DNA of 64,000 bases, from the NCBI GenBank assembly GCA_016806715.1, contig CP060531.1, positions 1,349,966 through 1,413,965 on the forward strand, read 5' to 3'. The notes beneath the pieces are model-generated. The model had not been told where the DNA came from. It saw nothing but the letters and a program-made list of their open reading frames with translations, and did no database searches. Shown here one piece after another: positions 54,632-58,790 of this stretch (position 1 is its first letter; each line of letters begins with the position of its first letter). The position numbers were made by a program, and so were the translations under genes. The DNA comes from Thermoplasmatales archaeon. Its GTDB lineage: Archaea; Thermoplasmatota; Thermoplasmata; Thermoplasmatales; Thermoplasmataceae.

Positions 54632-55339
54632 TCAGTAGCCTGTCCACGGTCCCTCAAGAGCCTGTTTCATCCTCAGAATCTCGTCTTCGTATTCCTTAGA
54701 ACCTTTTGGATATCTTTTGGGCGTAGATTTCTCATTCACAGTGGGCTTAATATGTGATATATGTGATTTTCCTGAAATAAGTTCCCTCACTAGTCTTGGG
54801 TTCTCATTCGGCATCTTTTGCATTTGTATTGGTTTAACCATACGAGGTCGTACGGGTGGCTGAACAATAACTTCCTGCTGCAATTCAGGTGGCTTAATGT
54901 TTTCGACCTCATTCTCTTCCTTTTCCTCAGTCTTAACCTGTGGAACTGAAACGGGTTTTTCAGGTAACTCTATAACTTTCGGGCTTGCTGGCTCCTCATG
55001 AGGTTTCTCTGGTGGAACAATTACAGGCTCCACGCTCTGCCAGTGGTGCTCTCTTCCTGTGGACCCAGTCTTGTAATTTTCCAGTGATTCCTCTAGACCT
55101 GTTATAGTGACAAAGTCCCTGCTCTCATCCATCATCTTTGTTATCTGCTGCCCTAGTTTTTCCACAAATTCTTTCAGCTTTGGCATTTCAATTGCTTCGC
55201 GTAAAATTCTCTGAATAGTTTCTCGGTCAGTTTCTCCGGGCCATTTCAGGAGTTCTAGAACTAAATAATCTTCTCCGTCAAGCAAAACACTCTTTGCTTC
55301 TTCGTCAACCTCTGTCTTCCTTGTCTTGTTCTTATCCAT
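54632..55339 (-). CDS. Proline/glutamate-rich partner-like protein next to actin
   Basis: A 235-residue protein. The first 90 residues are helical (ETDRETIQRILREAIEMPKLKEFVEKL), then a long disordered region rich in Pro, Glu, Val and Lys (about 100-180), and a basic helical end. No enzyme motif is visible. It lies 71 bases downstream of the actin gene on the same strand, so they are probably co-transcribed. An actin-binding or filament-control role is inference from place and composition. Confidence 0.6.
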   Translation of the reverse strand: MDKNKTRKTEVDEEAKSVLLDGEDYLVLELLKWPGETDRETIQRILREAIEMPKLKEFVEKLGQQITKMMDESRDFVTITGLEESLENYKTGSTGREHHWQSVEPVIVPPEKPHEEPASPKVIELPEKPVSVPQVKTEEKEENEVENIKPPELQQEVIVQPPVRPRMVKPIQMQKMPNENPRLVRELISGKSHISHIKPTVNEKSTPKRYPKGSKEYEDEILRMKQALEGPWTGY

Positions 55340-55410
55340 TTGTATATTACCTCTATGTTTTCATAGAAGCTGTTTAATAATTATCATCGTTATAAAATTA
55401 AAAAAAGGGA

Positions 55411-56388
55411 TTATTTGGATCTTTCAGCAGCATCCTTGTATCCTAGCGCATTTGCAAACTGAAGATCTTCCGGTGCTGCGGTGACCAATGCGCCCGGTGC
55501 CAGAACGTCCAGTGTCTGTCCTATCAGGGCAGCTCCGCCGCCTACGGGTATCAAAGCTGTAACACGGTCAAGTTCGCCCCTCAGGTTGGCTCTGAGACTG
55601 TCGAGTATCCGGTTAGATAGTTCCTTTAGTATAGGTGCCCCAACTTCTGCTCCCCCAACCTGTCGTTGCTTGAACATCACAGGTGAGGTGAGGGCCTGTC
55701 TTGCCACATCGGTCGGAACTACGAATCCGGTTTGTCTGGCTATGAGTTTTCCTATGTTGGACACTGCGTCTCCTATTCCTGCTTCTATGGAGAATGACAT
55801 TTCAACCACAGGCTCCATGTTCATGAGGTTTATTGTCAGGACATCAGTTGTCCTTGAACCAACATCAACAACCAAGCCATATCCCGGCTGACTCTTGACG
55901 AGTCCCTTCTCAACGAGATAAAGTGCTGCACCTACTCCCTGGGGTCTGACTACGAGTTTCTCTATGTGTATCTGTCTCGACTGCCCGTTATTAGCCTTTA
56001 TGGTAAGAGTCTTTCCTTCCAGGGACTCTCTTGCGGCAGCTACCTCCTGGTCAAATGTGCCCAGAGGGGTTCCACTACCAAGCGAGATACTGGTTTGGGC
56101 TCCACCGTCACCGGCTCCGCTGATCCACAGGGCTGCCGCAAGCAGTGGGCGTGAATCTGCGCTTGCCAACCTTCCATCACCCAGAGGTTCCCTTACACCA
56201 GCTCCAGTGGCGTTTTCTCCAAATATGAAGGGTTCCTCGTCATCTATTGCCAGAGAAAGTATTGACCCTCCAAATCCCCACGACTTGGCGTCGTATCTTG
56301 CCCATCTGGATGGGAACTTTTCTCTGCGTCCGTCCACACCGATTACTTTCGTATCTCCATAACCCAAATCTATACCTACTGAGACCAT
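55411..56388 (-). CDS. Archaeal actin-like ATPase, Ta0583 type
   Basis: A 325-residue actin-fold protein close in length and pattern to Thermoplasma Ta0583. Phosphate 1 loop GIDLGYGDTKV (5-15), phosphate 2 VVDVGSRTTDVL (173-184) and the adenosine motif PVGGGAALIG (281-290) are clear. Ta0583 can form ordered polymers and is ParM-like in structure. The gene has an AAGAGGAAGA purine-rich site before its ATG. Upstream is the 750-bp noncoding region, which could contain its control or a DNA target site. Confidence 0.85.
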   Translation of the reverse strand: MVSVGIDLGYGDTKVIGVDGRREKFPSRWARYDAKSWGFGGSILSLAIDDEEPFIFGENATGAGVREPLGDGRLASADSRPLLAAALWISGAGDGGAQTSISLGSGTPLGTFDQEVAAARESLEGKTLTIKANNGQSRQIHIEKLVVRPQGVGAALYLVEKGLVKSQPGYGLVVDVGSRTTDVLTINLMNMEPVVEMSFSIEAGIGDAVSNIGKLIARQTGFVVPTDVARQALTSPVMFKQRQVGGAEVGAPILKELSNRILDSLRANLRGELDRVTALIPVGGGAALIGQTLDVLAPGALVTAAPEDLQFANALGYKDAAERSK

Positions 56389-57136
56389 ACGTTTCTTCCT
56401 CTTATGTGCGACCCTGGTTCATCATTATTTCATTCACTGTACTCATGCGTTGGTCGAGCGAGTGTGCAAATTTTTACGTTCAGAGAACTGCTCGTGGCTA
56501 TTGCCCTCACTGTACTGGATGCATGTCGATGTTCAATATCTCCTCAATAGATGATCTATTGACTTGATGCCAGTCGTACATACCGCATCTATTAGCTACA
56601 TAAATATAAATCTTTTTGCCTTTTGCATGGAGTTTTTAAAGGATAAAATGACATAAACACAGTAAAATAGCGGATATTCAGATACACACAAAATTTCGCC
56701 TCTGTTATCTAAACGAAATAATCAAAATAGACAAATCACATACATTGGTATGCCTTAAAAAAACGAAGTGGGTTTACATACCTAATTCCTTCAATACTGG
56801 TTCCACAATTAAAAAACAGATAAGCCGGTTTTAAGAATTTCACAACATCAAATTCATATTAAAACGTTATTTTTAATGGCTGGAGAGATATATTCGCAAA
56901 AGTCAAGGGATAACACTTTCACTTCTTATTAAATATAGTAAGACAAATATAGGATCTACATAATTTCTATTACGCATGAATAAATATTTAGGTGAATATA
57001 AAAAGACCATTCAGTAGAATTATTACGGTTCCTAGATAATTATCTTCGTACAAACTGTGATATTACAACAATAAAAAAGGAGAAAATCGTTTTTGCTCAT
57101 GCGTTCATTTAAATTGAAACCTGTGCTAGAGCATAC
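56389..57136. other. AT-rich noncoding stretch with a repeated octamer
   Basis: About 750 bases without a believable gene. CTCATGCGTT occurs at 56442-56451 and 57096-57105, and its core in reverse complement (ACGCATGA) at 56972-56979, so the octamer TCATGCGT occurs three times. The second copy set is just ahead of a TATA-like CATTTAAAT (57106-57114) for the next gene. The region separates the actin gene from the accessory island. I see no tandem repeat, tRNA or CRISPR structure. Confidence 0.4.
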
Positions 57137-57778
57137 ATGGAGAAATTTGAACTGTTGGAAGTAGTGAAGGAATTAGAATTTGACACTGAGTTTGTGTTAT
57201 TTAAAAATGACAATAACAAATTATACATTAAAAGGCCGTCCAAAGTCCCTACAAGATTTCGAAGTTATGACTTGAAAAAGAACTTCCAGATTTGGATGAC
57301 TGAAGGGTCAAGGGTCTTCAGACCAAATCATTTGAGGTTGTTGCTTGACCTGAATTTGAGGGTTAGGAGCAGGCCTGAATTAAGAAATAACCTTTTAATG
57401 GGCTTTGATACGATATTCTATGGTCTCGACCCAAAAGAAGCCTTGAATTCGCTTGAGAAAGAAGATTTTCATCATTTCTTGAATCCTATTATTTTAATAG
57501 GTCATCTAGCTCAAGCTTTCCTAGTAGAGCAGGAGTACAGTTACAATAAAGAAAGCAAGTATGACCCACCTTCATTATTCCTGCAAGGTTGGGTTCGGCA
57601 ATTTATCGATAGCCCAAAAGAAATTGATAATCTTACCATGAGTGTAGCAAAAGGACAACCACCTATCTCAAAGTATGTTGATCTGGAAAATAAAAAGAGC
57701 AAGAGGTACATGGGGAAATTGAAACCCATGTGGTACATGGAAGAGAAAACATCATCACTAGAACAGCACTATGAATAA
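57137..57778 (+). CDS. 213-residue hypothetical protein, possible restriction endonuclease
   Basis: No family recognised. It is a soluble alpha/beta protein with a charged N-terminus (FDTEFVLFKNDNNKLYIKR, a possible D/E-x-K region), helices around ALNSLEKEDFHHFLNP and a basic C-terminus. It precedes a ribbon-helix-helix protein and a DNA methyltransferase, the usual setting of type II restriction enzymes, which evolve too fast to be recognised. TATA-like CATTTAAAT lies about 26 bases upstream, so it is leaderless. Confidence 0.5.
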   Translation: MEKFELLEVVKELEFDTEFVLFKNDNNKLYIKRPSKVPTRFRSYDLKKNFQIWMTEGSRVFRPNHLRLLLDLNLRVRSRPELRNNLLMGFDTIFYGLDPKEALNSLEKEDFHHFLNPIILIGHLAQAFLVEQEYSYNKESKYDPPSLFLQGWVRQFIDSPKEIDNLTMSVAKGQPPISKYVDLENKKSKRYMGKLKPMWYMEEKTSSLEQHYE

Positions 57779-57865
57779 TATTGGCTAAATGCCTTCGAAG
57801 GAGGGTCCTCAATAGTTATGTCTATTACTACTTATTGATATACACAAATAAGGATAGTGTTTGAA

Positions 57866-58021
57866 TTGAGTAAAGTCGCGTTGAATATTACGGTGGACGA
57901 GGAAGTCTTATCAAATTTTAAGAAACTTTGTAATGACAAAGACATAAAGGTTTCAACCAAGATAAATTCACTAATGAGACATTGGGTGGAAGAAAACGGT
58001 GGAGGTTCTAATGAACCATAA
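57866..58021 (+). CDS. 51-residue ribbon-helix-helix DNA-binding protein
   Basis: A short frame I found by hand. It begins at TTG 57866 (GTG 57857 is also open) and shows the CopG-type pattern: a strand KVALNITVDEEV, a helix VLSNFKKLCNDK, then KVSTKINSLMRHWVEEN. A TATA-like TTGATATAC (57834-57842) is placed for a leaderless start. It overlaps the methyltransferase start by 11 bases, so the two are coupled. It may repress the cassette or shape restriction timing. Confidence 0.6.
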   Translation: MSKVALNITVDEEVLSNFKKLCNDKDIKVSTKINSLMRHWVEENGGGSNEP

Positions 58022-58790
58022 GATCTATATAGGTGACAGTTTAGAGATTTTGAAAGAACTCGAGAATGACTCAATTGATATGGTTTTCGCTGATCCTCCG
58101 TATGGTATGTCCAAATCTAAGGGCCTTGGTTGGGCATACAGTAAACACATTACTATGCAAGAGGCATGGGACATTTTCACAAAAGATTCACTCTTTGAGT
58201 TCAATCTAAATTGGATAAGTGAAACGTTGCGTGTTGTGAGACCTGGAGGCAGTTTCTGGGTCTGTGGCTCATTTCATAATATATATCAATTGGGGTTTAT
58301 CTTGCAGCACCTTGACATGAAAATCAACAACAGCATAGTATGGTTCAAACCTAACGCTCAACCAAATATTACAACAAGAATGTTTACAGAAAGTACTGAG
58401 CATCTAATATGGGCCATAAAAAATCACTCTAAAGAAAAGTGGACTTTCAACTATGAAGTTATGAAAGGACTCAATGATGGAAAACAAATGAGGAATATGT
58501 GGTCCATACCATTGACGCCCAAAAGTGAGAAGTGGGCCGGTGGTCATCCAACCCAAAAACCTTTTGAATTGCTGAAAAGGGTCATTTTGTCGTCTACGAA
58601 TGAAGGTGATACTATTTTGGATCCTTTCTTGGGTTCCGGCACAACATCGGTAGTTGCAGAATACTTTGGGAGAAACTCAATTGGTATAGAAAAAAATAAA
58701 GAATATCTTAACATAATCCAGAAAAGATTGAATCCCCCTCAAAAAAGTATTCAGAATGCAGGTTTAAATGTGGAATACATTCAGAAATAA
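58011..58790 (+). CDS. DNA methyltransferase, N6-adenine/N4-cytosine type
   Basis: A 259-residue beta-class methyltransferase. Catalytic motif IV is DPPY (28-31), motif I is DPFLGSGTT (204-212) near the C-terminus, and GHPTQKP (178-184) is motif X. The order IV-X-I marks the beta class. ATG 58011 follows GGAGGT (58001-58006), so I prefer it over GTG 57999. The codon use and A/T content match the neighbouring 213-residue gene rather than the core genes. Its recognition sequence cannot be told. Confidence 0.82.
   Translation: MNHKIYIGDSLEILKELENDSIDMVFADPPYGMSKSKGLGWAYSKHITMQEAWDIFTKDSLFEFNLNWISETLRVVRPGGSFWVCGSFHNIYQLGFILQHLDMKINNSIVWFKPNAQPNITTRMFTESTEHLIWAIKNHSKEKWTFNYEVMKGLNDGKQMRNMWSIPLTPKSEKWAGGHPTQKPFELLKRVILSSTNEGDTILDPFLGSGTTSVVAEYFGRNSIGIEKNKEYLNIIQKRLNPPQKSIQNAGLNVEYIQK

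Follow-up and report, generated by a model that had tools for sequence, protein, structure and literature searches.

A ParR-like partner gene downstream of the Ta0583-type actin gene in Thermoplasmataceae

The Ta0583-type actin gene of Thermoplasmataceae is followed in nine genera by a gene for a protein with a likely ribbon-helix-helix (RHH) head and an invariant C-terminal motif. Sequence comparisons establish the linkage of the two genes, their conservation, and the head and tail motifs of the second protein. We consider it probable that actin and partner form a two-gene module on the chromosome, filament plus adaptor, which operates in the manner of bacterial ParM-ParR. The features discussed below lie in the window, which is the whole 64,000-nucleotide stretch of DNA that was analysed:

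55411 to 56388, minus strand: gene for a Ta0583-type actin-like ATPase, 325 aa (Pfam and 2fsj matches)
54632 to 55339, minus strand: gene for the ParR-like partner, 235 aa, beginning 71 bp past the actin gene (family found at this position in nine genera; E 5e-9 with a leave-one-genus-out HMM)
55070 to 55339, minus strand: partner head, residues 1-90, RHH-like (hhalign to RHH_1; AF2 helices 22-31 and 38-77)
54722 to 55069, minus strand: Pro/Glu/Lys-rich linker, about residues 91-206, probably disordered (identity, low pLDDT, composition)
54632 to 54721, minus strand: C-terminal tail, amphipathic helix with LE..W motif (EILRMKQALEGPW), proposed actin-binding element (invariant in 28 partners; helix 215-229)
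56600 to 56612, minus strand: putative TATA-like promoter element of the actin-partner pair (upstream DNA alignment, identical in 4 congeners)
56546 to 56560, no strand assigned: leader palindrome AATAGATSATCTATT, a candidate for a single operator (exact sequence unique in the genome; core incompletely conserved in genome G046)

The actin gene and its surroundings

Both open reading frames, on the minus strand, match their description in an earlier note on this DNA. The assignment of the first as a Ta0583-type actin was borne out by Pfam matches to ALP_N (E 7e-31) and MreB-like_C (E 1e-42) and by a full-length match to 2fsj, the Ta0583 protein of Thermoplasma acidophilum (E 3e-132). The matches to the Ta0583-type families (PF17989/PF21522) cover the full length and lie above the curated cut-offs, and the window's actin and Ta0583 are orthologs sharing 62% identity. 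A whole-genome search found a single actin copy in the 1.96-Mb genome. The crystal structure of Ta0583 has reportedly been available since 2006.

The protein also falls among the ParM-type actins, with E values of 1e-11 for pCBH ParM and 9e-14 for Sulfobacillus ParM/StbA; matches to the PRTRC_D and ParM equivalogs were weak and below cut-off. The MreB equivalog gave no match to the actin. Furthermore, mreC and mreD do not occur among the downstream neighbours, which beyond the partner are the triosephosphate isomerase gene (tpiA) and a gene for a membrane protein without Pfam match. The earlier proposal of a shape-determining system found no support. These archaea lack a cell wall, which would suit an actin serving as shape-determining cytoskeleton with the partner as its membrane or envelope adaptor, but we regard this as highly improbable: the partner sequence contains no membrane-spanning hydrophobic stretch, the nearest bacterial relatives of the actin are ParM-type and not MreB, and many Thermoplasmataceae genomes are without the actin altogether.

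On the 5' side of the actin, positions 57137-58790 encode three proteins: one of 213 aa that Pfam does not match, one of 54 aa that is RHH/ParG-like (57857-58021), and an N6_N4 DNA methylase (57999-58790). Synteny of this gene set is absent in congeners, and it is possibly a restriction-modification island.

The partner as a family and its losses

A pairwise search across the order matched the partner only within its own genus (four genomes), suggesting a genus-specific orphan. This reading was overturned by profiles and synteny. The synteny set comprised the 37 actin-bearing genomes among 117 in the order. The same-strand gene directly 3' of the actin was the partner at 29 of 29 loci, from 28 genomes and nine genera including Thermoplasma. 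Partner sizes range from 100 to 237 aa and the gap to the actin from 7 to 84 bp; in genome G070 the two genes overlap at the actin end, and there the partner escaped the gene picker and was recovered by profile. The flanking genes vary among the genus groups while the two genes stay together, so the pair behaves as a unit.

Leave-one-genus-out HMMs gave the neighbour as their best matches in the window's genus (E 3-5e-9), in Thermoplasma (2e-14 to 5e-11), in genus group g6 (4e-18 and 1e-6) and in g5 (6e-8 to 6e-4). Judged by these profiles, the actin neighbours of the nine genera are one family. In the order-wide profile search a partner without an actin occurred only in genome G092, where it occupies the extreme end of a 3156-bp contig and the actin would fall beyond the contig edge; the other genomes of the order gave three matches with E values of 0.002-0.009, which is noise level. 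The association proposed in the earlier note passed this survey of relatives, the neighbour being kept beside the actin in every partner-bearing genus. The probable T. acidophilum genome carries a short 102-aa version of the partner, 7 bp downstream of Ta0583. Two diverged actin-partner cassettes (L048 and L049) were observed in the uncultured archaeon ASS_A1 (CP009479).

In the tree of actins, the rows without a partner fall into two distinct groups, two MAGs of genus group g2 and Ferroplasma/Acidiplasma, which are nested among partner-bearing rows. Because of this placement, one ancestral actin-partner pair followed by two partner losses fits the tree, the root of which is unfixed. The partner, and partly the actin, has been lost in Ferroplasma-type relatives, indicating that the module is dispensable. 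Two Ferroplasma-type genomes (loci L062 and L067) have broken or fragmentary actins, with stops or fragments. The Thermogymnomonas actin is frameshifted in a draft genome, possibly through a sequencing error.

Head, linker and tail of the partner

The partner is present in all four genomes of the window's genus, and dN is far below dS wherever dS is measurable; on these substitution patterns it is a real gene. Its three sections evolve at different rates. Compared with the two nearest congeners, identity is 81% in the head, 34-44% in the linker and 87-90% in the tail; across the genus the ranges are 64-81% for the head (residues 1-90), 28-44% for the linker and 80-90% for the tail (206-235). 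AF2 predicted a helical head and tail with pLDDT of about 80-93 and a low-confidence middle. Pro, Glu and Lys make up 41% of the 114-residue linker. The helical head and Pro/Glu-rich middle described in the earlier note are both present, whereas its "basic tail" is only mildly basic, with a charge of +1. The proline-rich, probably disordered section that the note stressed is the fast-evolving, least conserved part of the protein.

The head is arranged as a strand (an extended segment), helix A, a turn with an invariant Glu and a long helix B. This Glu, in a GE[ST] turn, is the head residue that is invariant across genera. In profile comparisons by hhalign, the head and the RHH_1 proteins found in this order aligned in full register, with E values of 7.7e-6 for the core genera and 9e-5 for all. 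Among the controls, the best value was 0.026 for 64 control families and 0.0074 for 200 shuffles of the columns; the reversed profile gave 0.015. A single-sequence Pfam scan of 26 members for RHH_1 (PF01402) gave a best E of 0.26, below the cut-off, and Foldseek returned no significant match for either AF2 model. The second-ranked Foldseek match to the window protein, 6kyt (a MazEF-mt1 complex chain), had an E of 5 and was discarded as evidence. The AF2 monomers had low pTM. Since Pfam does not recognise single members and Foldseek is silent, we describe the head as likely, and not proved, to be RHH.

RHH folds are overwhelmingly DNA-binding. In the alignment, the strand positions that usually contact DNA are unconserved between genera; the outward residues are not consistently basic, least of all in the window's genus, where they are non-basic. 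N-terminal arms are basic in several genera. The non-basic outward residues imply that DNA binding by the head may have been lost in the window's genus. Conservation of the tail and head core, with the outward strand residues left free to vary, would also be expected if the partner regulated or nucleated filaments and had no role on DNA, the head only dimerising and the tail capping, bundling or depolymerising actin. The DNA-binding habit of RHH folds speaks against such a regulator, which we consider unlikely while giving it more weight than the other alternatives.

In the tail, the residues of an E-x-x-W element are invariant across genera and the preceding Leu is nearly so. LE..W (or ME..W) is found near the C-terminus of all 28 partners tested, compared with 1 of 607 other proteins of the same loci. 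The motif closes an amphipathic helix, modelled by AF2 at residues 215-229 with a pLDDT of about 90. The LE..W tail may be the element that hooks actin. Four actin residues, R138, V173, D319 and R323, are conserved where the partner is present but differ in both lineages that have no partner. This pattern is suggestive of a C-terminal contact site on the actin, but it exceeds chance by little and D319 is absent from most bacterial actins.

A protein that is mainly an operon repressor, an RHH autoregulator making no actin contact, would have the same kind of head. Such a protein would have no need for a C-terminal LE..W helix that stays invariant at the end of a variable linker, and the motif is retained even in g5, where the head is most diverged. 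We regard this explanation as quite improbable, even in view of the operator-like sequence described below that would suit it.

In the adaptor reading that we prefer, the head would dimerise through its strand and would bind DNA or cluster on it, and the tails would offer actin the LE..W helix in several copies. The contact would probably lie in a cleft near the actin C-terminus, as for ParR on ParM. Once brought together by a head that is bound to DNA or oligomeric, the tails could hold and steer the growing filament end, by which filament growth would be coupled to a site on the DNA. The module would probably serve to move or position DNA of the chromosome, or a plasmid that was once resident. 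Counting against this reading are the lack of iterons at most loci, the silence of single-sequence Pfam and Foldseek searches on the head, the low pTM of the AF2 monomers, the outward strand residues that are not consistently basic, the unsupported homology with the Bacillota partners, the inconstant position relative to orc1/cdc6 and the losses in Ferroplasma-type relatives.

Upstream DNA, bacterial relatives and known systems

The long noncoding stretch upstream of the actin to which the earlier note drew attention is real and measures 748 bp (56389-57136), but conservation in the genus is limited to its proximal ~290 bp, which include the TATA-like box and a ~190-nt leader, and the stretch holds no parC-like array. 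Leader and promoter are conserved within genera. The 15-bp leader palindrome lies just downstream of the TATA-like box in the window's genus. This position is a point in favour of a repressor, and autoregulation of the operon by the partner would be possible under the adaptor reading as well. As a genome-wide repeated site the palindrome was rejected, the genome containing no family of copies; it is a candidate operator.

From 1 kb upstream to 1.5 kb downstream, most loci contained no parC-like iterons by a crude scan with 10 block shuffles per locus. Scores above the shuffles were scattered: one Thermoplasma locus, one locus in the window's genus and three GC-rich bacterial regions. TRF and a repeat finder detected no repeat array, and Rfam gave no match. 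Proximity of the actin to orc1/cdc6 is not conserved. In another genome, a ParA-like gene lies beside an Orc1/Cdc6 paralog (G101:C1:1557773-1561615), which may be an integrated plasmid; in the window's genome the sole ParA-type match is weak. The absence of a parC array counts in favour of a regulator without a DNA role, as does the finding that Cb-cParR depolymerises filaments independently of parC (PMC12270681).

A genome contig scan found actins 35-50% identical to the window's actin in MAGs labelled Bacillota, an assignment in which binning errors are possible. Several of these contigs (L171-L182) are plasmid-like, each with its own ParM-like actin and small downstream gene. The small ORF begins 1-2 nt past the actin stop in seven of them (L171, L172, L173, L174, L176, L177 and L181) and overlaps the actin or nearly so in L175 and L178; the candidate in L180 is 338 nt away and L182 is fragmentary. 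On five Bacillota contigs the small ORF is followed by a gene identified by eye as encoding a VirD4-like coupling protein, and these contigs are therefore probably plasmids. The frequent location of related bacterial actins on plasmid-like contigs is a second point against the regulator. Sulfobacillus plasmids carry a ParM 29% identical to the actin, followed at a distance of about 190 nt by a small gene that looks RHH-like. Viral contigs yielded no actin relative.

The tails of the Bacillota small ORFs end in LEGRW, IQGPW, LDRAF, LEDRY and the like. A loose tail motif is present in all 11 bacterial partner candidates, including Sulfobacillus, versus 7% of the background; the strict LE..W occurs in one of the 11. 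Since hhalign gave no support for homology between the archaeal and Bacillota partners, we treat the shared tail as resemblance only. It is plausible that the module originated from plasmid systems that acidophilic Bacillota carry, or was exchanged with them. The "filament adaptor" and "ParM-like" parts of the earlier proposal draw support from the resemblance of the head to RHH, the invariance of the C-terminal motif and the plasmid-like contigs of the bacterial relatives.

In the plasmid ParM-ParR-parC systems (R1, pSK41, pB171) an actin-fold ATPase is likewise followed by a small protein with an RHH-type head and a conserved tail. The ParR tail occupies a hydrophobic pocket of ParM, like barbed-end regulators on actin (PMC5016525), and the ParM of plasmid pSK41 is reported to be structurally closest to Ta0583 (PMC4911067). 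Unlike these systems, the archaeal pair is chromosomal, iterons were not found and the partner has a 114-aa disordered linker in the window's genus; sequence similarity of plasmid ParRs to the archaeal partner was undetectable. Taken by its components, the pair has a confirmed adjacent family whose head is supported as RHH by profile comparison but not by single-sequence Pfam or Foldseek, and a candidate counterpart of the ParM-binding tail in the invariant amphipathic LE..W helix. Because no iteron array above shuffles, bar single marginal cases, was found as a parC, we do not file the pair as ParMRC and call the partner ParR-like by resemblance.

Some bacteria have ParM-ParR pairs on the chromosome (PMC12270681). 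The cParM-cParR pairs of Desulfitobacterium and Clostridium botulinum combine a chromosomal actin with an adjacent divergent RHH protein, as the archaeal pair does. In contrast, their actins belong to a different lineage, the C. botulinum system has a parC, and the archaeal partner could be traced through a whole archaeal family. Salactin of Halobacterium salinarum is another archaeal actin homolog, linked to the partitioning of DNA when ploidy is low; a text search of that report (PMC10746226) turned up no mention of a ParR-type partner. Ta0583 itself has been grouped with ParM/MreB (PMC2651865) and a segregation role for it has already been proposed (PMC10354927). Its partner gene is not named in the open-access papers found on Ta0583, and may have been mentioned in subscription papers, including that on the 2006 structure, which lie outside this coverage.

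The findings suggest that Ta0583 of Thermoplasma, an actin that has long been an orphan, powers a chromosomally encoded module for moving DNA. More tentatively, and with somewhat less confidence than in the adaptor reading itself, we propose that this chromosomal ParR-like module of Thermoplasmataceae segregates or positions cellular DNA, with a centromere other than a nearby iteron array. The analysis names a family-wide partner of Ta0583 and a short LE..W motif, by which the question becomes testable, and gives T. acidophilum a defined partner candidate in the 102-aa gene. An archaeal chromosomal actin is thereby linked to plasmid-type DNA-moving systems. If the proposal is true, an archaeal actin would for the first time have a DNA adaptor identified for it, and the module would be related to those on plasmids of acidophilic Bacillota.
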